From: Candidatus Tectimicrobiota bacterium | GTDB taxonomy: Bacteria > JACPSX01 | Assembly (NCBI GenBank): GCA_016193065.1 | Contig: JACPSX010000047.1 | Span: 1-10,719 of the forward strand | DNA length: 10,719 nt | Reading direction: 5' to 3' | Shown: piece by piece, positions 1 to 10,719 of the stretch | How the letters are laid out: each line of letters opens with the position of its first letter | Numbering within the stretch: position 1 is the stretch's first letter | Notes under the pieces: generated by a model | Told to the model about the DNA's origin: nothing | The model's input: only the letters and a program-made list of their open reading frames with translations | Database searches by the model: none | Program-made: the position numbers and the translations under genes

Positions 1-113
1 CGGAGGCAGCTAAGGAAGAAATCCTGGGCGTGGTCCGGCGAGTGGAAGGCGTCGTTGCCGTCCAGGATCTCCTGGAAATCAGCGTGATTCCAACCCCCGA
101 GTTTATGGGTTAG
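1..113 (+). CDS. BON-domain protein, C-terminal fragment
   Basis: Only the last 36 codons are in the window. The frame begins with the codon at 3 and stops at TAG 111-113. The visible residues run from EAAKEEILGVVRRVEGV through VAVQDLLEISVIP to PTPEFMG. The alternating pattern, with V-x-x-V-x-GV-x-x-V-x-D-x-L, is typical of the end of a BON domain, a small alpha-beta module of periplasmic or envelope proteins thought to bind phospholipid or other surfaces (OsmY type). How many BON repeats the whole protein has, and whether it carries a signal peptide, cannot be seen. It converges on the phosphorylase gene, with 46 bp between the two stops and no obvious terminator hairpin there. The family call rests on a short stretch. 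Confidence 0.6.
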   Translation, partial: EAAKEEILGVVRRVEGVVAVQDLLEISVIPTPEFMG

Positions 114-159
114 GGGCAGTCGGGTCAGCTTCACTTCCATCTTTCCGCCCGCTGGGGCA

Positions 160-942
160 TTAAGAAGGACGCAGATCCCGGGAAACTGTAGGGAGGCCCG
201 CAGTGCGGAGAAGGGTCTTGGCGGCTCCGAAAAGGATCCGGATGGACAATTCTCTGGCTTGCCGGTAGCTGGGCTTCCTGAACCCTTGGATCCAGCGCTT
301 CTCTTTTAGCTCATCGGAAACGGCGTGAAGTGCGGCAACCGGTACCCCGCGGAACTTTCCCAGGGCGAAGAGGGCCGAGGTCTCCATGTCTACAGCTACC
401 CCGCCTTGGCTCCGGTAGCGGGCGATGACCTCCTGGGTCTCCCGGTAGGGCGCGTCGGTGGTGCATATTCGCCCGCCGTGAAAGGGAACCTCGAGGCTCC
501 GGCAGCTCCCCTCCAGAATCTCTCGCATCCCGGTGTCTGCTGCAAATACCTGGGTCCCTGGTAAGTAGTGGTGTGAAGTCCCCTCGTCGCTCAGGGCCTG
601 CGAGGGGATGAGAAGGGACCCCACGGGCAAATTGGAGACCAGGGAGCCGCAACTGCCCATGATCAGAAGGCTCACGCAACCGTTGGCGAACAGGCTTTCG
701 GCGACCATTACGGCAGCCGGAGCTCCGACGGCAGGTCCCGCTACCCCCAGGATCCCCTGGTGATCCCGAGACCTGTACCAACTGGCCGACAGCACGGGGC
801 TTGGATTATCAAGCTGGCCTGAATCCTGAATGGCCTGCAGATCCTGCGGGGAAGGAACCAGGATCATGAGTGGAGGCAGCTTCGGACCTCGCCTCCGCCC
901 CGGTCGTACCCATTCCCTTCCAAAAGAGCTTCCCTGTTTCAT
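160..942 (-). CDS. Nucleoside phosphorylase (purine/uridine phosphorylase superfamily)
   Basis: A cytosolic enzyme of the PNP/UDP phosphorylase superfamily. The family cleaves the N-glycosidic bond of a nucleoside with phosphate, for salvage. With the 942 start it has 260 residues, the usual size. Visible motifs are GSCGSL (96-101, phosphate/ribose side), DEGTSHHYL (119-127), TTDAPYRET (161-169), the signature VDMETSALFALG (184-195; Met and Glu contact the ribose) and HAVSDEL (206-212), whose Asp sits at the base-activating position. Substrate (uridine, purine nucleoside or methylthioadenosine) cannot be fixed from these. There are two possible starts. ATG at 942 has a weak GGGAG just upstream. 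ATG at 867 (MILVPSPQDL) has no Shine-Dalgarno. The longer form includes a WVRPGRRRGPKLPP extension that I recall, tentatively, from relatives. The gene is transcribed away from mreB and appears monocistronic. Confidence 0.85.
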   Translation of the reverse strand: MKQGSSFGREWVRPGRRRGPKLPPLMILVPSPQDLQAIQDSGQLDNPSPVLSASWYRSRDHQGILGVAGPAVGAPAAVMVAESLFANGCVSLLIMGSCGSLVSNLPVGSLLIPSQALSDEGTSHHYLPGTQVFAADTGMREILEGSCRSLEVPFHGGRICTTDAPYRETQEVIARYRSQGGVAVDMETSALFALGKFRGVPVAALHAVSDELKEKRWIQGFRKPSYRQARELSIRILFGAAKTLLRTAGLPTVSRDLRPS

Positions 943-1038
943 CTCCCATCCCGGTGGAATATGGCGAATTATACCCGCATCTGGAGGCCGAAGGACAGCG
1001 GAGAGTTGGATGTTGGTCAGCCGGGTGCATGGCGGGCA

Positions 1039-1055
1039 TTGGCATGGAAATTGCT
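1039..1055 (+). promoter_or_regulatory. Candidate sigma-54 (RpoN) -24/-12 promoter
   Basis: The sequence TTGGCATGGAAATTGCT matches the sigma-54 consensus YTGGCACGRNNNTTGCW at 13 of its 14 informative positions. The only mismatch is T for C at 1045. The invariant GG (1041-1042) and GC (1053-1054) are 10 nt apart, as the family requires. It points at mreB, with transcription expected to start near 1067. No activator-binding repeat was recognised upstream. The match is seen in the sequence; its use is inference. Confidence 0.55.
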
Positions 1056-1326
1056 GCTAACCCCGATCCGACAAAAATAATCAAGCCCTATGCGATCCTG
1101 GACTGCGTGTTGCCAGGGTTGCCGACATATTGATCGTAGGTCTGTAAACACACGAAAGGTGAGTTGTCGATTCATCGTAGGAACAGCTCTTCCCCGTAAT
1201 CTAACGCTTATCAGCAATGATTTATGGGGCTGGATAATGTCGGATCGCGGCTAACGTCTGAGTGCCAGTGCTCCGATAGGAGATAGGGGCCAATGACCCG
1301 CGACCGGAACCTAAGAATCGGATCTC

Positions 1327-1333
1327 GAGGAGG
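1327..1333 (+). promoter_or_regulatory. Ribosome-binding site deciding the mreB start
   Basis: GAGGAGG directly abuts an ATG at 1334, leaving no spacing, but lies 6 nt before a second in-frame ATG at 1340. That spacing is near optimal, so 1340 is preferred as the start codon. Confidence 0.7.
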
Positions 1334-1339
1334 ATGGGT

Positions 1340-2314
1340 ATGATCTTGGATAGGCTATCCCGGATGTTCTCCACTGACCTGGCCGTGGATCTAGGGACGG
1401 CCAATACCCTCGTCTATGTGCGAGGGAAAGGGATTGTTCTCAATGAGCCTTCGGTGGTGGCTGTGCATGCCGAGACCCGCCAGATTCTGGCCGTAGGGAA
1501 GGATGCAAAGCGTATGCTCGGTCGTACTCCGGGGAGCATTGTGGCTACACGTCCCTTGAAGGACGGGGTCATCGCCGACTTTGACGCCACGGAGGCCATG
1601 CTTCGCTACTTCATCACAAAGGTCCACAACCGAAAGCGCTTCGTCCATCCCCGGGTGGTCATCTGTATCCCTTCGGGGATCACGGATGTTGAGAAGCGAG
1701 CGGTGATGGACTCGGCCCGGTCAGCTGGCGCCCGGGAGGTTTATTTAATCGAGGAGCCTATGGCGGCTGCCATTGGCGCCGGACTGCCGATTCAGGAGGC
1801 TTCAGGAAACATGGTGGTCGATATCGGAGGCGGCACCACGGATGTGGCCGTGATCTCCCTGTCCGGGATCGTCTTCAAGAAGTCCGTGCGCTGTGCCGGG
1901 GACGCAATGGACGAGAAAATCATCCATTACATTAAGCGGAAATATAACGTCCTGATCGGAGAGCGCAGCGCGGAAGAGATGAAGATCGAACTGGGGTCCG
2001 CCTTCCCCCTCCCCCAGAGGATAACTCGCGAGGTCAAGGGACGGGACCTGCTTACGGGCGTGCCAAAGGTCATCATATTGAATGACGATGAGATTCGGGA
2101 AGCGCTCTCGGAGCCCGTGGCGACGATCCTCGACACGGTCAAGGTGGCTCTCGAGCATACCCCCCCGGAACTGGCCGCCGATATCATGGAGCGCGGAATT
2201 GTCCTGACGGGAGGTGGCCCGGTGTTCCGGGCTGAGGATGCCCTGGCGGCGATTGCTCTGGGTTCGGGCAAGGTACTGGATGAAATCGAGCTTTTGAGGA
2301 AGGTGGCCGTGTGA
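1340..2314 (+). CDS. mreB: Rod-shape-determining protein MreB, with an internal ~16-residue deletion
   Basis: MreB is a bacterial actin homologue that polymerises with ATP under the inner membrane and positions the elongasome for lateral wall synthesis. From 1340 it has 324 residues; most MreBs have about 335-350. It carries phosphate-1 [11 protein letters not shown] (17-27), [16 protein letters not shown], the [14 protein letters not shown] block, phosphate-2 [25 protein letters not shown], and the GIVLTGGG adenosine motif ending at residue 293. After GGG the sequence jumps straight to [23 protein letters not shown]. In E. coli MreB and its relatives about 16 residues (ALLRNLDRLLMEETGI in E. 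coli) lie between GGG and the following PV. The lost segment helps form the nucleotide pocket, so function is doubtful unless this is a sequence error. The rest, including the [14 protein letters not shown] end, is normal. mreC and mreD are not adjacent. The stop is TGA. Confidence 0.93.
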
Positions 2315-2640
2315 GCCATTCCCTTAGGATGCGAGGGATCGGTCGTGGATTCTCTGCGGGCATTCAGTTGGCGCGATTGCAGCCCAAGAGGCGCTGATGA
2401 TTTCCGGTAGCCCAGCGGCCACGCATAGCGATCCTTGCGGGTGCCGCTGCTGCGGGCAGTGCGCTTAGGGAGGGAATGGACAGCCTCCTTAAAGTCTCCT
2501 GTCCGGCGCTGACCTCACCACGGTACTCTGAAACCTCAGGCCGTACGGCTCTGCAGGAGCCCCAGAGAGACACCCCGAGGGCCTCGATCGCCCGCCAGTT
2601 CCCCGCCAGGAAACCAGGCGCAGGCAAGCATTTTCCTCAC

Positions 2641-2669
2641 TTGACTTCTCGGAAGATATCGATTAGCCT
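2641..2669 (+). promoter_or_regulatory. Candidate sigma-70 promoter upstream of the zinc-ribbon gene
   Basis: TTGACT (2641-2646) is followed, after 17 nt, by TAGCCT (2664-2669). The -35 matches 5 of 6 consensus bases. The -10 keeps only the key T, A and final T. It would give a leader of about 290 nt before the ATG at 2964, so it may serve another transcript or be chance. Confidence 0.3.
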
Positions 2670-2946
2670 CAAATTATTCTCGAGGGAAAACGGAGGGTAG
2701 GTTCGTCAGTCAGTGAGGCTGGAGAAAATTAAACAGTCGGTAGTTTCGTTTGTTTCAGATCAGTCCTTGCCTTCTCCCAACCAGTCCAGGATCCTCGTGG
2801 GTGAAGACTTTTTCCGGCTTGAGCCCGGATTGAGGAGCTGGTTTTCGAGCGGGTGCCCTTTGGGCGCGCCCTGTTCCCGCCTGCAACAAATATAGAAGGG
2901 AAAGATCCGAGGTGGATTGAAAGCGCATTCGCAGCCAAGTTCCCAC

Positions 2947-2955
2947 AAGAGGAGG
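2947..2955 (+). promoter_or_regulatory. Ribosome-binding site of the zinc-ribbon gene
   Basis: AAGAGGAGG lies 8 nt before the ATG at 2964. It is the strongest such site in the area and sets the start there, rather than at the in-frame ATG at 2853. Confidence 0.75.
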
Positions 2956-2963
2956 CGCTCGCT

Positions 2964-3281
2964 ATGGAAGGAACTTCCCTGGGAAGTGGTGGTGACAAAC
3001 AACTGGTTTGTACCCTGTGCGGCCAGCCCTTCCTCTTTACTGTAGGGGAACAGGAGTTTTATCGCCAGCGGGGGTTCCTGCATGAACCCAAGAAGTGTAA
3101 GCCGTGCCGCGACCGCGAGAAGCAGTCGGGGAACCGAAAACGGAGCGAGAACCCCGCAAGTCAATCCTTTGAGGTGGTGTGCTCTACTTGCCAGAAGACC
3201 ACCCGCGTTCCCTTCCGGCCCATCCCGGGAAAGCCAGTTTACTGCCGAGACTGTTACCTTCAGATCAAGAGGAATCAGTAA
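2964..3281 (+). CDS. Small double zinc-ribbon protein (CxxC repeats)
   Basis: This is a 105-residue protein made almost entirely of two zinc ribbons. The first uses C16-x2-C19 and C45-x2-C48 around GQPFLFTVGEQEFYRQRGF, a hallmark of the zinc-ribbon family (zf-trcl type). A basic linker (residues 49-67) follows. The second ribbon uses C73-x2-C76 and C94-x2-C97 around TTRVPFRPIPGKPVYC, typical of the CxxC-spaced small zinc proteins found in many Desulfobacterota, Nitrospirota and Chloroflexota. All eight cysteines are present, so two structural zinc ions are likely. The biochemical role of the family is not established; nucleic-acid or protein binding is often assumed. The start follows the strong ribosome-binding site at 2947-2955. 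The last 7 bp overlap the 3' end of moaE on the other strand. Confidence 0.85.
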   Translation: MEGTSLGSGGDKQLVCTLCGQPFLFTVGEQEFYRQRGFLHEPKKCKPCRDREKQSGNRKRSENPASQSFEVVCSTCQKTTRVPFRPIPGKPVYCRDCYLQIKRNQ

Positions 3282-3739
3282 ATCTGATTTCCTCCCTCGG
3301 CGGTTGGACTCGAAGCTGAGGGGGTAGTCTTCTCTATATTGACCCAGTGCCGTCCCCCTTCTTCCCAATGCTCTCTTTTCCATATGGGAACCAGGATTTT
3401 GATCTGCTCTATGGCAAAGCGGCAGGCAGCAAACGCGTGATCCCGGTGAGGGGATGATACCGCAATGATCACGCTGCTCTCCCCCACTTCCAAGTGGCCC
3501 ACCCGGTGGAGGATCGCCACTTTGGAGACCGGCCAACGCCGATGGATTTCCTCGCCGATGTCCCGGAGTTTTTCCTCCGCCATTGCCTCGTAGGCTTCGT
3601 ATTCGAGAAACTTCACCTTTTTCCCTTCCGAGTGATCTCTTACAATCCCATCAAAGTAGACGACGGCTCCCGCGCCGGGCTCTTTCACCCACGCTTCAAC
3701 ATCCGCCGGGGAAATCTTGTCCCGGGTAACCCGAAACAT
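3275..3739 (-). CDS. moaE: Molybdopterin synthase catalytic subunit MoaE
   Basis: MoaE is the large subunit of molybdopterin synthase. It transfers two sulfurs from MoaD thiocarboxylate onto precursor Z (cPMP) to make molybdopterin, the cofactor of molybdenum and tungsten enzymes. The 154-residue protein (E. coli has 150) shows YFDGIVRDHSEGK (28-40), YEAYEAMAEEKL (47-58), HRVGHLEVGESSVIIAVSS (78-96), H98-R99, and IKILVPIWKREHWEEG, with the two catalytic lysines at K114 and K121, spaced as in E. coli (K119/K126). The ATG at 3739 has a GGAGG 8 nt upstream and starts 1 nt after the moaD stop. The GTG at 3754 is in frame but would overlap moaD and lacks its own site. The C-terminal tail from about 136 is poorly conserved. 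It is co-transcribed with moaD. Confidence 0.95.
   Translation of the reverse strand: MFRVTRDKISPADVEAWVKEPGAGAVVYFDGIVRDHSEGKKVKFLEYEAYEAMAEEKLRDIGEEIHRRWPVSKVAILHRVGHLEVGESSVIIAVSSPHRDHAFAACRFAIEQIKILVPIWKREHWEEGGRHWVNIEKTTPSASSPTAEGGNQIY
3294..3322 (+). terminator. Weak hairpin after the zinc-ribbon gene, possible terminator
   Basis: CCCTCGGC (3294-3301) pairs with GCTGAGGG (3315-3322) as 8 bp with one G-U, loop 13 nt, starting 12 bp after the zinc-ribbon stop. The downstream tract is only pyrimidine-rich (GTCTTCTCTATATT), not a clean T-run. It lies inside the moaE reading frame, so the pairing could be incidental. Confidence 0.3.
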
Positions 3740-3740
3740 C

Positions 3741-3989
3741 CTACTTGCCTCCACTTACAGGGGGGATCACAGCGATCTCATCGCCAGCCGTGAGCACTTG
3801 GCTTCTCGGGACATACTGCCGGTTTACGGCGATCAGGCAATTGGGCAGAAGAGGTGCAATTTCGGGTTGGCGGGAAGCCAAAGTGGCCAGCAAATCTTCT
3901 ACCTTGCTGCCCGGTTGCATTTCCATGGAAATCTCGCCCTCCCCCAGTTTTTCCCGCAAAATGGCGAAGAGCTTGAGCCGGACCTGCAC
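3741..3989 (-). CDS. moaD: Molybdopterin synthase sulfur-carrier subunit MoaD
   Basis: MoaD is a ubiquitin-fold sulfur carrier. Its C-terminal Gly-Gly is adenylated by MoeB and converted to a thiocarboxylate that feeds MoaE. The 82-residue length and sequence are standard: VRLKLFAILREKLG (3-16), VEDLLATLASRQPEI, LIAVNRQYV (52-60) and GDEIAVIPPVSGG (69-81). The frame then has one more codon, AAG, so the product ends GGK, not GG. The start is GTG at 3987-3989, with AAGGAG 5 nt upstream. The TAG stop lies 1 nt before the moaE ATG, so the pair should be translationally coupled. A promoter candidate at 4049-4077 would drive both. No moaA, moaC or moeB lies in the window, so the rest of the pathway is elsewhere. 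Confidence 0.92.
   Translation of the reverse strand: MQVRLKLFAILREKLGEGEISMEMQPGSKVEDLLATLASRQPEIAPLLPNCLIAVNRQYVPRSQVLTAGDEIAVIPPVSGGK
3748..3752 (-). promoter_or_regulatory. Ribosome-binding site of moaE, inside moaD
   Basis: On the minus strand GGAGG sits within the last codons of moaD, 8 nt before the ATG at 3739. It supports that start and ties moaE translation to that of moaD. Confidence 0.7.
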
Positions 3990-4048
3990 GCCTTCTCCTT
4001 TCCTGCATTTGTAAGAAAGATCTCGTTCCTATTGTGAAAAACAAATTT

Positions 4049-4077
4049 ATTATAGAAAAAGGAACGGCAAGCTGCAA
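4049..4077 (-). promoter_or_regulatory. Sigma-70-like promoter for moaDE
   Basis: Read on the minus strand, TTGCAG (4077-4072) is followed after exactly 17 nt by a perfect TATAAT (4054-4049). Transcription would begin near 4042, about 50 nt before the moaD GTG. It lies between the mpg stop and moaD, suggesting moaDE has its own promoter. Confidence 0.6.
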
Positions 4078-4127
4078 GGAGCCTCTGGGAGGCAGTTGAA
4101 GCCCGGAGAGAGCGAGGGAAATCAAGG

Positions 4128-4739
4128 CTACCGTTCCGGCCGGGAAACAAACGGACTGCCGAGGAGATAAAACCGCAGCGGTAGCTCGCGGGCCGTGCGA
4201 ATTCCGATCCGGCCGCTTACCCCAAGAGGAGGGGATTTTTCCCCGTTGTCGGTAATAAAGAGGATCTCGGAAGTCAGATCCGCTTCATTTTGCGTGAGGT
4301 TGATGCCGAGAGCCTGGGTAAGTCGGGCAGGTCCCCGGGCCAGGTCGAGGATCTGCTTCACTCCCCGCCGGCGCTGCATGAGAGGGACACCAAACAGGGG
4401 TTCCAGAGCCCGGATCAGAATGGCTCCCGGGACCCCCTCAGGTTCCGTAACGACGTTCATGCAGTAGTGCATTCCATAGGTGAAGTAGACATAGACTGTG
4501 CCTGGTGTTCCGAACATGGGGCGATTGCGGGGGGTGAGGCCCCGGTAAGCGTGGGAAGCGGAGTCCGTGCTGCCGAGATAAGCTTCTACCTCCACGATGC
4601 GTCCGCCTGCCGCTCCTGCGCGGGTTCGATGGAGGAGGATTTTCCCCACCAGATCCCGGGCTACGGTCGGAGTATCCCGCTCATAAAAATCCCGCTGCAG
4701 GGGAAGGCCCCAATTTGCCGAGTCGCCCCGTCTTCTCAT
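4128..4739 (-). CDS. mpg: DNA-3-methyladenine glycosylase (MPG/AAG family)
   Basis: A base-excision-repair enzyme that removes alkylated or deaminated purines (3-methyladenine, hypoxanthine, ethenoadenine in characterised members) and leaves an abasic site. The 203-residue protein matches the family throughout: LPLQRDFYERDTPTVARDLVGK (12-33), VEVEAYLGSTDSASHAYRG with the catalytic Glu at about 52, TPRNRPMFGTPGTVYVY (69-85), YGMHYCMNVV (88-97), GAILIRALEP, LARGPARLTQALGI, and the terminal LRFYLLGSPFVSR. The only good start in frame is the ATG at 4739, which lacks a clear Shine-Dalgarno. It is divergent from the endonuclease III gene, with about 90 bp between starts, so two repair glycosylases share a control region. 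Its stop is TAG at 4130-4128. Confidence 0.93.
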   Translation of the reverse strand: MRRRGDSANWGLPLQRDFYERDTPTVARDLVGKILLHRTRAGAAGGRIVEVEAYLGSTDSASHAYRGLTPRNRPMFGTPGTVYVYFTYGMHYCMNVVTEPEGVPGAILIRALEPLFGVPLMQRRRGVKQILDLARGPARLTQALGINLTQNEADLTSEILFITDNGEKSPPLGVSGRIGIRTARELPLRFYLLGSPFVSRPER

Positions 4740-4816
4740 GCCAAACCGGAAAGCTCTCTTGTCCCCTGGCGGGGATCTGCATTATAGTCCTCTGCCGGTC
4801 GGCAGAATCGCGTCCC

Positions 4817-4821
4817 GGAGG
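4817..4821 (+). promoter_or_regulatory. Ribosome-binding site supporting a TTG start for nth
   Basis: GGAGG at 4817-4821 lies 9 nt before an in-frame TTG at 4831. The resulting LKPEQIHEAIRIL start matches where endonuclease III proteins normally begin. The in-frame ATG at 4738 would add 31 residues of unlikely sequence. Confidence 0.6.
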
Positions 4822-4830
4822 CAGCGATCC

Positions 4831-5487
4831 TTGAAACCCGAACAGATCCACGAGGCAATCCGCATCTTGCGAAATCTATCCCGGCACTGGACGTCACCCG
4901 CCGTATCTCAGGTTACCGCCAAGGGGAAAGACCCTTTCAAGATCTTCCTGAGCACCGTGCTGAGTCTCAGGACCAAGGATGATACCACAGGACCAGCCTC
5001 GGAGCGCCTTTTCGCTCTGGCCTCCACACCCAGGGAGATTCTGAAGTTGGGCCGGGCCAGGATTGAGCGCGCCATTTATCCGGTGGGGTTTTACAGGGTC
5101 AAGGCGGCCACCCTCCTTGAGATCTGCAGGGTTCTCGTACGGAAATATAATTCGAGGGTTCCCGATGACCTGGACGAACTCTTGAAATTGAAGGGGGTGG
5201 GGCGGAAAACGGCGAACTTAGTCGTCACCATGGGATACGGGAAGCCGGGGATCTGCGTGGACACCCATGTCCGCCGCATCTGCAATCGCTGAGGTTATAT
5301 CTCTACAAAAAATCCGCTGCAGACCGAGATGGCCCTGCGACAGCGGCTTCCCCGACTGTATTGGATCCCGTTCAATCACTTGCTCGTATCCCTTGGACAG
5401 AACATTTGCCGTCCTGTTTCTCCGCTTTGCAGCCTCTGTCCTTTGTCCCATCTTTGTGAACGGAAAGGGGTGCGTGTGTGGAGATGA
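4831..5487 (+). pseudogene. nth: Endonuclease III, interrupted by an in-frame TGA at 5290-5292
   Basis: Endonuclease III is an iron-sulfur DNA glycosylase/AP lyase that removes oxidised pyrimidines. From the TTG at 4831 the frame reads 153 codons to TGA 5290-5292, then continues 64 codons in the same frame to TGA 5485-5487. The total of 218 positions is normal for the family. Before the TGA lie the helix-hairpin-helix LKGVGRKTANLVV with catalytic Lys126, and VDTHV with catalytic Asp144, spaced 18 as in E. coli K120/D138. After it come MALRQRLPRLYWIPFNHLLV and the cluster ligands C193-x6-C200-x2-C203-x5-C209, all intact. The TGA follows VRRICNR and precedes GY, where I recall many relatives having NRWGY, so TGG to TGA is the simplest change. 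Without readthrough the product lacks the cluster. It could be a recent nonsense mutation, a sequencing error, or a readthrough stop. Confidence 0.88.
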
Positions 5488-5540
5488 GAAACCGGCACTC
5501 TGGAAACTTGGTGCCGGGCTGTCAATCGGGAAGGAGGGCC

Positions 5541-6005
5541 TTATTGCACGATTCGTCGGATCTTTATAAGGGGATGGCGGAGTTGCAACGCCGGGCTTGG
5601 GGGAGACAGAGGCACGTGAGATTCGGCCTGTACCGCCGAGGGTTTCTGTCCTAAAACAGCGGGATGCTCAGGATACGCTGTTTCCGTTCGCGGCCGCTTG
5701 ACCCCTTTTGCCGCCGTCTTGGCAGGGACCTTTCTCTTCGTCGGCATGGATTTCGAGCGAACGGTCAGTTTCCTGCCTGTCGAACCCTTGACCTTGGCTG
5801 TGGAGGACTTCGGTGTTTCTCTCAACTTGCGGCTGGAGGCCAGGAAACGTAAAAAGGCCTTTCCAAGTTCCTCCTTGGAATAAACCAGGAGACCTCCGGG
5901 CTTTCGCTTGCACTCGACTCCTAGCATCCTCAGGAACTTGACGGCACTTTTCATGCCACATCCGAGGTGGGATGCAAGTGTTTTTGTACTTGCAGGGTTT
6001 TTCAT
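5541..6005 (-). CDS. Small basic protein with HTH-like N-terminus and lysine-rich tail
   Basis: I do not recognise a named family. The 154-residue product starts at an ATG with AAAGGAGG 6 nt upstream, one of the best ribosome-binding sites here, so it is very likely real. Residues 7-55 (TKTLASHLGCGMKSAVKFLR, then a short turn and VYSKEELGKAFLRFL) resemble the topology of a MerR/excisionase-type helix-turn-helix: two helices, a beta wing with GG, then a helix. Residues 57-107 are dominated by K, R, S, T, P and A (for example KRKVPAKTAAKGVKRPR), like the tails of histone H1-like or nucleoid-associated proteins. The last 45 residues are proline-rich, ending IKIRRIVQ. There is no signal or membrane segment. 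It reads divergently from the BFN-PDZ gene across an AT-rich control region. DNA binding is inference. Confidence 0.7.
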   Translation of the reverse strand: MKNPASTKTLASHLGCGMKSAVKFLRMLGVECKRKPGGLLVYSKEELGKAFLRFLASSRKLRETPKSSTAKVKGSTGRKLTVRSKSMPTKRKVPAKTAAKGVKRPRTETAYPEHPAVLGQKPSAVQAESHVPLSPPSPALQLRHPLIKIRRIVQ

Positions 6006-6053
6006 ATTTAGCCTCCTTTAACCCGTGCCCAGGCTATCAACGCATAGAATTTG

Positions 6054-6081
6054 TATATATTTTAACATCTTATTGATTCAA
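6054..6081 (-). promoter_or_regulatory. Sigma-70-like promoter for the basic HTH protein
   Basis: On the minus strand TTGAAT (6081-6076) is followed after 16 nt by TATATA (6059-6054), or after 18 nt by TATACA. The surrounding DNA is markedly AT-rich. A start near 6047 would leave a leader of about 40 nt with the strong AAAGGAGG site. Confidence 0.5.
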
Positions 6082-6156
6082 AACACAGAAGGAAGTGGGG
6101 AAAACCCTCTTTTCTGCCCTCTGAGAAAAGGATTTAAGACTGTATCCAATTGAAAA

Positions 6157-6189
6157 GAATGATCTTTGTTGTGTTATGGGGGATCATTC
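6157..6189. repeat. Perfect 8-bp inverted repeat, possible operator
   Basis: GAATGATC (6157-6164) and GATCATTC (6182-6189) are exact reverse complements separated by 17 bp, in the divergent region between 6005 and 6300. Just before it lies TTGAAA (6150-6155), with TTATGG 18 bp further on (6174-6179), so the repeat overlaps a possible promoter. It could bind a dimeric regulator or form a weak hairpin. Confidence 0.4.
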
Positions 6190-6206
6190 AGGGGCCGTGA
6201 TTTCTC

Positions 6207-6236
6207 TTGACATGGGAGGTAACAATAGGTTATGGA
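6207..6236 (+). promoter_or_regulatory. Promoter candidate for the BFN-PDZ gene
   Basis: A perfect -35 TTGACA (6207-6212) is followed after 17-18 nt by TTATGG/TATGGA (6230-6236), a poor -10. Transcription from about 6243 would give a leader of about 57 nt before the ATG at 6300. Confidence 0.45.
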
Positions 6237-6299
6237 ATCAAAAAAATGCTCGTTGAGTCTTAGCGAGGGGGGATCTCGTTAATTGAAGGAAAATCAGTC

Positions 6300-7154
6300 A
6301 TGAAAAGGCAGCTGCTCACACCCGGGAAAGGCGGATTCAAGCGGCTGTGGATGGCTACCGTGGTAGGGACAGGCATTATTCTGGCCGGGTACGTAGCGGT
6401 TGTGGTGGGTGCTCAGGATCTGCAAGAGCTGAGAGTGAAAGGAGTCAATGTCGACCGTCAGAGTAATTCGCCCGTCGTCATTGTAGAGGCAGTCAAAGGT
6501 GGAAAGACCTTTCCAATTTGGATCGGGTATACGGAAGCGCAGGCCATTGCTATGGAAATGGAGCACGTTCCTACCGAACGTCCCATGACCCATGATTTAC
6601 TGCGAAATATCCTCGCAGGTCTCAGGGCAAAAGTGGCGCGCGTCACCATCACGGATCTGCGAGATGGGATTTTCTATGCTTCCATTGCGCTCCATCCTCA
6701 AGGAGGAGGGCCGGAAATCTCGATTGATTCCCGACCCAGTGATGCTATTGCATTGGCTCTGCGGGTTCGGGCTCCCATATTTGCAACCCAGAAGGTGCTT
6801 GAGGAGGCACGCGCTTATGGTTCTGCCGAACCGGGATTTTCCGCTTCTTTGCGGGAGCAATTTGGAATTGGCGTCCAGGAGTTGACCCCGGATCTGGCCC
6901 GGGTTTTCGGCATTCCCCGCGCCGAGGGGGTCCTGGTCTCTGAAATCGTCCCTAGGAGCCCGGCGGACACAGCAGGGGTTCATTTGGGCGATATAATCCT
7001 TGAGGTGAACTTAAAAAAGATATTGAACCTCAAGGAGTTATTGGGTCTCCAGGGAGAGATCTTAAAGGCAGGGAAACTGCAGCTTACCCTGTTTCGGGTC
7101 AAAGATGGCAAGCAGAGTTTGACCCTTAGCTTAACCCCAAAACCGGCAAAATAG
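6300..7154 (+). CDS. Membrane-anchored or secreted BFN (DUF151) domain fused to a PDZ domain
   Basis: The 284-residue protein has three parts. Residues 1-38 are a basic N-region and a hydrophobic stretch (about 17-37) ending VVVGAQD, a signal peptide or anchor. Residues 41-175 are a BFN/DUF151 domain, with PIWIGYTEAQAIAMEME (72-88), RPMTHDLLRNIL (94-105), ITDLRDGIFYASI (117-129) and SRPSDAIALALRVRAPIF (144-161). Residues 186-279 are an HtrA-like PDZ, with GIGVQELTPDLARVFGIP, GVLVSEIVPRSPADTAGV and GDIILEVN. BFN domains are called bifunctional nucleases after plant members, but the bacterial role is unclear. Export to the periplasm argues against a simple cytosolic nuclease job and suggests a protein-binding or quality-control role. 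The start has GAAGGA 9 nt upstream. Flanking genes are divergent or separated by about 190 bp, so it is probably monocistronic. Confidence 0.85.
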   Translation: MKRQLLTPGKGGFKRLWMATVVGTGIILAGYVAVVVGAQDLQELRVKGVNVDRQSNSPVVIVEAVKGGKTFPIWIGYTEAQAIAMEMEHVPTERPMTHDLLRNILAGLRAKVARVTITDLRDGIFYASIALHPQGGGPEISIDSRPSDAIALALRVRAPIFATQKVLEEARAYGSAEPGFSASLREQFGIGVQELTPDLARVFGIPRAEGVLVSEIVPRSPADTAGVHLGDIILEVNLKKILNLKELLGLQGEILKAGKLQLTLFRVKDGKQSLTLSLTPKPAK

Positions 7155-7241
7155 GCTCTTTTCCCTCAGGAAGGAGGAGAATCGACAGTAAGTTTTTGTG
7201 TAAAGCAGCCGATAAAACAAGTGTGAGATTGGACGGGAACC

Positions 7242-7257
7242 TCTCGGAAAACCGAGA
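7242..7257 (+). other. Small hairpin in the leader of the M23 peptidase gene
   Basis: TCTCGG (7242-7247) and CCGAGA (7252-7257) form a perfect 6-bp stem with an AAAA loop, midway in the 193-bp gap between the BFN-PDZ stop and the ATG at 7348. No T-run follows, so it is not a terminator. I could not assign the gap to a known riboswitch class. It also holds the M23 ribosome-binding site. Confidence 0.3.
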
Positions 7258-7347
7258 CTCGCGAAGTAGTAGCTGAATTCTTGAAGGTCGGGCAAGGAAG
7301 CGGATCATCGGAAGCAGGTCGGGACAGCCAGGGAGGAGAGCGAAATT

Positions 7348-8280
7348 ATGGCGAGGCGGTTTTACACGATACTTGTGATCCCTGACGTCAGCAGTAAACT
7401 ACGGCGCATTTCTATCCCATCGAACTGGGTGCGCGGCATCATTGGAATCTCAGCTGCTGTTTTCTTGTTGGTAATTTTCCTTATCTACAGCTACGTCCAG
7501 ATGGGGGTAAAGGTTGTCGAGTTGAGCAGCTTGCGCAGAGAGGCCCGCGAACAGAGGGCCCAGATTCGCACCTTTGTCAAAAGCCTTCAAGCCCTGGAAG
7601 CCCAGATGGCCCGCCTGGAGCGCCTTGACAAGAAGCTGCGGCTGATGACCGCTCTCGGTACCCCCGAGAAGGGAAACAACAATTCAGCCCTCGGAGTTGG
7701 AGGTCCGGAGGGGAAAGAGGTAGAGGGCCTTCTGGGGGATCTGGACAAAAACCAAAGTGAGATCTTAAAGAGGGTCCAAGCTGGGCTGCTGGATCTGCAG
7801 CGGTTCGCTGTTCGTCAGGAGTTGAGCTTTCTTCAGATCGATGAATTCCTCAAGGGACAAAAGCATCTGTTGGCTTCTACCCCTTCCATCTGGCCGACCC
7901 GGGGATTGATTAGTTCTGGTTTCGGCTACCGGACTTCTCCTTTTACCGGGACCCGGCAGATGCACGAAGGACTTGATATTTCCAACCTGGAAGGAACTCA
8001 GATCCTCGCCACGGCGGATGGGGTTGTGGTCCGAGACGATCGGGATGTGACCCTCGGGAAGTTTATCGAGATCGATCACGGCAACGGAATTACGACCCGC
8101 TATGCCCACAATTCCCGTGTCCTGGTCAAGGCGGGTCAGAAGATCAAGAGAGGCGATCCCATCGCCACGGTAGGAAACACCGGGAAAAGCACCGGCCCTC
8201 ACCTCCACTACGAGATTCGCGTCAACGGGACTCCGGTGAATCCCCGAAACTATATCGTCGAGGAGCCCGGCCCCGGCTAG
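7348..8280 (+). CDS. Membrane-anchored M23 (LytM) metallopeptidase with coiled coil
   Basis: A cell-wall endopeptidase-type protein of 310 residues. The short cytosolic N-terminus (FYTILVIPDVSSKLRRISIP) is followed by one membrane segment (about 30-50), a charged heptad-rich coiled coil (about 55-105, LSSLRREAREQRAQIRTFVK and on), a linker, and the M23 domain (about 183-305). The domain begins WPTRGLISSGFGYR. Zinc ligands are H206 and D210 (HEGLD) and H287 of HLHYE; H254 (RYAH) and H285 complete the active site. It therefore looks catalytically competent, unlike degenerate EnvC/NlpD-type activators. Family knowledge suggests it cuts peptide cross-links in peptidoglycan in the periplasm during growth or division. 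Ribosome binding is through GGGAGGAGAG ending 7 nt before the ATG. A strong terminator follows, separating it from secA. Confidence 0.93.
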   Translation: MARRFYTILVIPDVSSKLRRISIPSNWVRGIIGISAAVFLLVIFLIYSYVQMGVKVVELSSLRREAREQRAQIRTFVKSLQALEAQMARLERLDKKLRLMTALGTPEKGNNNSALGVGGPEGKEVEGLLGDLDKNQSEILKRVQAGLLDLQRFAVRQELSFLQIDEFLKGQKHLLASTPSIWPTRGLISSGFGYRTSPFTGTRQMHEGLDISNLEGTQILATADGVVVRDDRDVTLGKFIEIDHGNGITTRYAHNSRVLVKAGQKIKRGDPIATVGNTGKSTGPHLHYEIRVNGTPVNPRNYIVEEPGPG

Positions 8281-8315
8281 GGATATGCGGCTGGCTGAAG
8301 GTTGGATTCCGGAAG

Positions 8316-8343
8316 AGCCCTGGCGACGAGCCAGGGCTTTTTT
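8316..8343 (+). terminator. Rho-independent terminator after the M23 gene
   Basis: AGCCCTGGC (8316-8324) and GCCAGGGCT (8330-8338) form a perfect 9-bp GC-rich stem with the 5-nt loop GACGA, followed at once by six T residues (8338-8343). This is a textbook intrinsic terminator 35 bp after the M23 stop. Confidence 0.92.
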
Positions 8344-8379
8344 GTGAGAATCGGTGCCGCCGTCCGCAGTGGATATTTG

Positions 8380-8391
8380 TGCTATTATAAT
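8380..8391 (+). promoter_or_regulatory. Promoter candidate for secA
   Basis: TGCTATTATAAT contains an extended -10 (TG-N-TATTAT, 8380-8388) and an overlapping perfect TATAAT (8386-8391). The -35 region is poor (TCCGCA at 8363-8368, 17 bp before TATAAT). It sits between the terminator and the secA start and would give a leader of about 50 nt. Confidence 0.5.
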
Positions 8392-8443
8392 CTGCAGAAG
8401 GGTAAACAAATTGACTGTGGTTTGAAGGCGGGTTTTTTCCATT

Positions 8444-10719
8444 ATGCTGACAGGAATCGTCAAAAAGGTTATCGGCAGCAAGAACGACCGGGAGCTGCGC
8501 CGGATTCAGCCTCTCGTCGATCGCGTGAACCAACTCGAACCCCGGGTGCAGGCTCTCACAGCCGAACAAATGGTGGCCAAGACTGGGGAATTCCGGGAAC
8601 GTCTCCAGCGGGGGGAATCCCTCGACAGTATACTTCCGGAAGCTTTCGTCCTGGCTCGCGAGGCGGCCCGGCGTACGATCAACATGCGCCACTTCGACGT
8701 CCAAATCGTCGGCGGCGTCGTCCTCCACGAAGGGAAGATCGCCGAGATGAAAACCGGCGAGGGGAAGACTCTGGTTGCCACCTTGGCCGTCTATTTGAAT
8801 AGCCTGTTGGGGAAAGGGGTTCACGTCGTTACTGTGAATGATTACCTGGCCCGCCGGGATAGCGAATGGATGGGACCTGTTTACCGCTACTTGGGCCTGG
8901 CGGTCGGCGTGATTCAACACCAGATGGGGGATCTGGAGAGACAGCAAGCTTACCGGTGCGATGTCACTTATGGGACCAACAATGAATTCGGCTTCGATTA
9001 CCTGAGGGATAACATGAAGTTTGCCCTGGACCACTGCGTCCAGAGAGAGCTCCATTACGCCATCGTTGATGAGGTGGACAGCATTCTCGTCGATGAGGCC
9101 AGAACCCCTCTCATCATTTCGGGTCCTGCCGAAGAATCGACGGATAAGTACGACAAGATCGATCGCACGATCCCAAGGTTGCGGGCGGGACGGGACTATC
9201 AGGTGGATGAGAAGTACCGCGCGGTCACGCTTACCGAGGAAGGGGTGACAAAATCTGAAGGTCTGCTCGGAATTGAGAACCTGTATGACCTTTCCAACAT
9301 TGACACCCTTCACCACATCAATCAAGCCCTCAAGGCCCACACCCTGTTCAAGCGGGATGTGGACTATGTGGTTAAGGACGGGGAGGTCATCATCGTCGAT
9401 GAATTTACCGGGCGTCTGATGCCGGGTCGGCGCTACAGCGACGGGCTACACCAGGCTCTGGAAGCCAAGGAAAAGGTCAGTGTGGCCAATGAAAACCAGA
9501 CCCTGGCCACCATTACCTTTCAGAACTACTTCCGCATGTACGAAAAGCTGGCCGGGATGACGGGAACGGCGGATACGGAGGCCGCTGAGTTCCACAAGAT
9601 CTACGCCCTCGACGTCGTGGTGATTCCCACCAACAAGCCTCTGATCCGGACAACTTACCCCGACGTGGTGTACAGGACCGAGGAAGAGAAATTCCGGGCG
9701 GCCGTTGAGGAGATCGTGGAACTGCACGAAATGGGACGTCCCGTGCTGGTGGGGACGATCTCCATCGAGAAGTCGGAGCATCTGAGCAGCATGCTGCGCA
9801 AACGCGGCATCGATCACCATGTCCTGAATGCCAAGCACCACGAAAAGGAGGCCGAGATAATCGCCCAGGCGGGCCAGAGAGGGGCTGTAACCATAGCGAC
9901 GAACATGGCGGGCCGCGGTACCGATATTATTCTCGGAGGGGAGGTCGCCGCCCTGGCAGGTTTGCACATCCTGGGCACCGAACGACACGAGAGCCGGCGA
10001 ATCGATAACCAGCTCCGGGGCCGCGCCGGCCGCCAGGGAGATCCAGGATCCTCCCGCTTCTATCTGTCGCTGGAAGATGATCTGTTGCGAATCTTCGGGT
10101 CGGACCGGATTTCCGGGATTATGGAGAAGCTCGGGATGGAAGACGGCCAGCCCATCGAGAACCGCCTGGTCACCAGGGCAATCGAGAACGCCCAGGGGCG
10201 CGTCGAGGCCCATAACTTCGAGATTCGCAAGCAACTTCTGGAATATGACGACGTCCTGAACAAGCAGAGGGAGGTCATTTACGCCCAGCGCCGGCAGATT
10301 CTGGAAGGGAGAGAAACCAAGGAGATGTTTCTCGATATGGTCGGCGACGTTCTGGATGGGGTCATAGAGCAGTTTCTAGGCCGGGACCGCCATCCCCAGG
10401 ACTGGGACCTGGAGGGGCTGGCCGAAGCCCTGCAGAGACAGTTTTCCCTAGAGGCTAGACTGGAAGGTTCCGAAAATCTGATGCTTGCCGGCCGCTCTTC
10501 CAAGCCCCTGGCGGAGTTCACGCCGGAGGAGATCCGCGACTTCCTGTGGGCAGCCATTTTATCCCATCACGAGGCGCGGGGAGAAGAGTATGGACCGGAA
10601 CTGATGTGTTACCTGGAGAGGCGGTTCATGCTGGAGGTGCTCGACAACCTCTGGAAGGATCACCTCCTGAGCATGGATTACCTGAAGGAAGGAATCGGGC
10701 TGCGAGGATACGCCCAGAA
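8444..10719 (+). CDS. secA: Preprotein translocase ATPase SecA (3' end beyond the window)
   Basis: SecA is the ATP-driven motor that pushes unfolded secretory proteins through SecYEG. The 758 visible codons read without interruption. Motifs are the N-terminal [18 protein letters not shown], Walker A MKTGEGKT (102-109), [26 protein letters not shown], Walker B DEVD (209-212) with [15 protein letters not shown], the preprotein cross-linking domain, [53 protein letters not shown], and [22 protein letters not shown] from residue 512. The insertion between LGG and [10 protein letters not shown] is very short, as in Bacillus SecA rather than E. coli. The visible end ([15 protein letters not shown], then GLRGYAQ) is the helical scaffold. 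The C-terminal zinc-binding tail is not in the window. The ATG at 8444 fits the family, but only a distant GAAGGCGGG stands in for a ribosome-binding site. Confidence 0.98.

Follow-up and report, generated by a model that had tools for sequence, protein, structure and literature searches.

The interrupted nth locus

The window analysed here, a stretch of 10,719 nucleotides (positions 1 to 10,719 of the forward strand of contig JACPSX010000047.1), comes from a draft genome of Candidatus Tectimicrobiota bacterium (GCA_016193065.1) and contains an endonuclease III (nth) reading frame that is interrupted by one in-frame TGA. The features of the locus are as follows.

4759..4788, forward strand: sigma-70-like promoter match TTGTCC-18-TATAGT, 5′ of nth (a consensus match only)
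4817..4821, forward strand: Shine-Dalgarno-like GGAGG, 9 bases 5′ of the TTG start at 4831, read from the sequence
4831..5289, forward strand: 5′ part of nth, 153 codons, with the catalytic Lys at codon 126 and the catalytic Asp at codon 144
5290..5292, forward strand: in-frame TGA, codon 154, a position occupied by W, L or F in relatives
5293..5484, forward strand: 3′ part of nth in the same frame, 64 codons, encoding two helices and a C-x6-C-x2-C-x5-C iron-sulfur motif
5485..5487, forward strand: TGA, the expected terminal stop of full-length nth and the end of the read-through frame

A longer version of the gene could begin at an ATG at position 4738, although this start is less likely than the TTG at 4831 because it overlaps the divergent methylpurine-DNA-glycosylase gene. 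The promoter match is the only one seen upstream of nth, against 0.3 expected, by consensus matching. The residues immediately preceding the internal TGA are VDTHVRRICNR and the local codon context is CGC-TGA-GGT. An earlier note on this DNA described a frame that stops at TGA after VRRICNR and then stays open for 64 codons, with exact spacing of the cysteine motif and a +6 offset of the catalytic Lys and Asp relative to Escherichia coli. The sequence bears this out (open codons at 5293-5484) and extends it to the four cysteines: counted from the TTG at 4831, K126, D144, C193, C200, C203 and C209 all lie six positions beyond K120, D138, C187, C194, C197 and C203, which we take to be their counterparts in E. 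coli endonuclease III. This offset is constant on either side of the TGA and there is therefore no net insertion or deletion across the stop.

Identity of the two halves

The nth product scores 180.8 bits against the endonuclease III model TIGR01083 when read through the TGA and 139.1 bits as the ORF alone, the tail thus adding 42 bits. Both values lie under the equivalog cut-off (211.7) and the best PDB match by sequence is 9nzc, on which grounds the protein belongs to a divergent branch or subfamily and is called Nth-like here. The HhH-GPD domain is present (PF00730, 77.9 bits), with K126 in the HhH and D144 18 residues further on, and the iron-sulfur model PF10576 scores just below its cut-off (19.9 against 20.5). 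The gene resembles known endonuclease III (Nth; TIGR01083, PF00730, PF10576) in its HhH-GPD fold, the Lys of GVGRKTAN, the Asp 18 residues on and, when read through the TGA, the C-x6-C-x2-C-x5-C motif, but differs in carrying a stop at codon 154 and in its score under the TIGR01083 cut-off.

An open frame of 64 codons is by itself found in ∼8% of shuffles. The tail matches the endonuclease III of 52 other genomes residue for residue, retaining 20 of 20 conserved columns, and this, together with the additional 42 bits, shows that it is genuine nth sequence and more than a chance open frame. Alignments of the read-through protein with endonuclease III from many phyla are uninterrupted. An AlphaFold model of the read-through product (mean pLDDT 93.5) superimposes on the solved endonuclease III structures 1p59 (TM 0.84, the best PDB match) and 2abk (TM 0.81), consistent with a product that would fold as endonuclease III. 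The stop codon corresponds to the last residue of helix 144-153 of this model, and truncation at the TGA is predicted to remove helices 161-171 and 174-190 along with the iron-sulfur motif, which is encoded only 3′ of the TGA and is missing from the 153-residue ORF product. The view that truncation costs the enzyme its iron-sulfur domain and spares both catalytic residues is upheld, K126 and D144 being encoded 5′ of the stop and the motif 3′ of it.

The TGA codon in relatives and constraint on nth

Alignment of nth from related genomes at this codon, a check proposed in the earlier note, was made with 52 orthologs at >45% identity, none of which has a stop at the position and none of which has Cys there; it is occupied by W in 23, L in 21, F in five, and M, A and S in one each. 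The statement that many relatives read NRWGY therefore stands with respect to W in 23 of the 52 but leaves aside those with L or F. Likewise, a single G-to-A change from TGG to TGA is plausible but unproven, since the Leu codon TTA is also one step from TGA, and the closest relative compared (L005) has TTA at the stop position. For these reasons Trp (TGG) is, on comparative evidence, likely but not certain to have been the ancestral codon. No same-species copy of nth was found, the nearest ortholog being 63% identical, and a search of viral contigs found no relative.

Two accounts of the TGA carry most of the weight. In the first, to which we give about an even chance, the codon is a consensus or assembly error. 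In the second, which we rate somewhat short of even, it is a real and recent nonsense mutation (a young pseudogene or strain polymorphism) that leaves an inactive 153-residue product, with a second endonuclease III gene elsewhere in the genome covering the function. For a nonsense mutation, one transition from TGG is enough and W is the commonest residue at the position; that such a transition is the commonest kind of natural mutation also speaks against an assembly error.

Constraint was assessed at columns where at least 90% of relatives agree. Violations number 0 of 20 in the tail and 2 of 38 in the upstream part (L39F and H148R), so that both halves look normally constrained, as would be expected of an assembly error. 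The two substitutions, unusual at otherwise conserved sites, could be taken in favor of a nonsense mutation, but they fall within the 0-4 upstream violations obtained by leave-one-out in intact relatives of comparable divergence, and for this reason the gene gives no indication of decay or relaxed constraint. Long-standing decay of nth was considered and is unsupported. The suggestion that the stop, if a mutation, must be very recent was overstated: by our own estimate from ∼20 conserved codons, what the intact tail can establish is an upper limit of roughly 0.07 substitutions per site on the neutral divergence accumulated after the stop arose.

A second endonuclease III and other damaged genes in the draft

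The search for another nth in the genome that the earlier note had recommended was successful. A second endonuclease III, which exceeds the TIGR01083 cut-off, is encoded on contig C231 (L116), although it lacks nine residues just before the iron-sulfur motif (around position 1034). Its presence favors a real nonsense mutation, as loss of the copy in the window would then be tolerable, and the same can be said of mreB: the copy in the window lacks ∼17 residues near its C-terminus in comparison with solved MreB (about 2225-2240), and two further mreB genes are found on contigs C109 and C128, such that another redundant gene also looks damaged.

The draft assembly itself totals 2.90 Mb over 294 contigs, has a completeness of 86.3% and contains runs of N, all of which is in keeping with an assembly error. 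Lesions were surveyed in ∼193 kb of homology-covered sequence, with about a quarter of the genome sampled, and two convincing internal stops were detected, the nth TGA and a TAA in recR (L151, contig C34, 17169-17171). The latter lies opposite a conserved Glu, with RecR intact downstream; it interrupts the only recR in the genome, and no such stop was seen in any other genome that gave a match to recR. With TAA as the stop in recR, the damage is not confined to TGA codons. In kdsA (L125, contig C8, around 5421) a conserved block of ∼28 residues is missing in frame, and an ilvB-like gene (L134, contig C17) has a 39-residue in-frame gap at 4219 and a frameshift at 4827-4841. Damage to recR, kdsA and the ilvB-like gene in the same draft argues for an assembly error, and against a real mutation in nth in that loss of the single-copy recR and kdsA should cost the cell. 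The same pipeline was applied to one complete genome, G010, of which 1.2 Mb was scanned and 147 kb covered, and found nothing comparable within any convincing homolog, the listed stops being low-identity antisense matches or lying at gene ends. This also favors an assembly error, although the control is a single genome of different quality.

Four of the five length lesions in conserved genes (contigs C8, C17, C231 and C282) keep the frame, as scored by a pipeline that detects in-frame cases more readily than out-of-frame ones. This in-frame share exceeds what is expected of random assembly error, which counts against that origin. A gap in SecA relative to G010 was dropped as a candidate lesion, as SecA of genome G047 covers the same 758 codons without a net indel. 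Coding potential was also scanned for genes interrupted by a single stop, but the hits were mostly operon neighbours and the real nth tail scored below zero; this output was excluded from the counts.

Recoding, readthrough and split-enzyme readings

In 588 kb sampled from the organism's own genome, 187 long ORFs have a stop, and in 96 of them it is TGA, the most frequent terminator; prfB, encoding RF2, is present and over its cut-off. The sole tRNA-Trp found in the 86% complete draft has a CCA anticodon, a 5-bp anticodon stem and a normal D stem; the classic UGA suppressor tRNA-Trp carries a D-stem change, which is not seen here. A tRNA-Trp with a 4-bp anticodon stem has been shown to read UGA in bacteria (PMC13092985), and nth resembles that system in having a UGA in frame where Trp is often found but differs from it in the 5-bp stem, the presence of prfB and the use of UGA as main stop. 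With TGA frequent, RF2 kept and neither a tRNA-Trp(UCA) nor a suppressor found in the draft, the genome does not have the marks of a UGA-to-Trp code (tables 4 or 25-like), and genome-wide reassignment of TGA was rejected.

Selenocysteine was considered because a SelB-like protein over its cut-off is encoded on contig C175 (269-2155; L180). The sequence following the TGA contains no SECIS-like hairpin, folding no better than shuffles, and in place of the Cys sought in homologs W, L or F is found nearly throughout; selenocysteine at this TGA was rejected on both counts. The draft yielded no tRNA-Sec: three loci exceed the gathering score for this tRNA, and ARAGORN classes them as ordinary tRNAs for Trp or Ser, although the absence of a gene from an assembly that is 86% complete is weak evidence against its presence. 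Despite SelB, and allowing for the incomplete genome, we consider a genetic-code change or selenocysteine at the nth TGA highly improbable.

The intact tail could also be accounted for by useful readthrough, in which Trp (or Cys) is inserted at the UGA often enough to supply some full-length enzyme. Low-level UGA readthrough is known in E. coli, where it has been ascribed to near-cognate tRNAs (PMC5373646). Against this stand RF2, the use of TGA as main stop, a standard tRNA-Trp unlike the 4-bp-stem suppressors, the lack of a stop at this position in all 52 relatives, and the TAA in the other interrupted gene, recR. TAA is normally a tight stop. Readthrough at nth is accordingly rated improbable, and still more doubtful is a general leakiness of stop codons through which the organism would tolerate stops in repair genes (the nth TGA and the recR TAA) and make enough full-length protein. 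A split enzyme, in which the 153-residue piece would assemble with a separately started C-terminal piece, could make use of an in-frame ATG 14 codons past the stop (codon 168), but no Shine-Dalgarno-like site is evident before this ATG and nth is unsplit in all 52 relatives, and we give this arrangement scarcely any credence. Of the three explanations offered at the outset, recent mutation and assembly error thus survive, and readthrough is unsupported, given RF2, the main-stop role of TGA, the standard tRNA-Trp and the lack of a SECIS-like element.

Origin of the stop and its meaning

Consensus or assembly error is placed first because several unrelated conserved genes, single-copy genes among them, are damaged, the kinds of stop differ and nth is otherwise constrained; a real recent nonsense mutation comes second, and useful readthrough is improbable and unsupported. 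On the leading reading nth is an ordinary endonuclease III gene without recoding, from the subfamily with NRWGY in many relatives, and one base in the deposited sequence turns a sense codon, most likely TGG (Trp), into TGA. We infer that the stop most likely arose in the assembly and not in the cell, as a wrong consensus base or an assembly fault in a fragmented draft MAG, and that nth is probably intact in the living organism. Low coverage and the choice of assembler are reported to be frequent sources of pseudogenes with internal stops, which follow the general error level of an assembly (Cooley and Wright, 2024; PMC11017572); this favors the same origin here. The nth case resembles such spurious draft-assembly pseudogenes in its lone internal stop, its constrained gene and a fragmented assembly with other broken conserved genes, and it may share their cause. 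Were the base real, translation would end after 153 residues, with the catalytic pair kept and the last two helices and the iron-sulfur motif lost.

The interrupted nth is an ordinary finding, and its meaning is mainly one of caution, in that a lone internal stop in a draft environmental genome can mimic recoding or gene loss, here in a draft that contains other broken conserved genes and shows no sign of stop-reading machinery. If the base is real, the locus would mark a deep-branching lineage that has recently lost one of its two endonuclease III genes.
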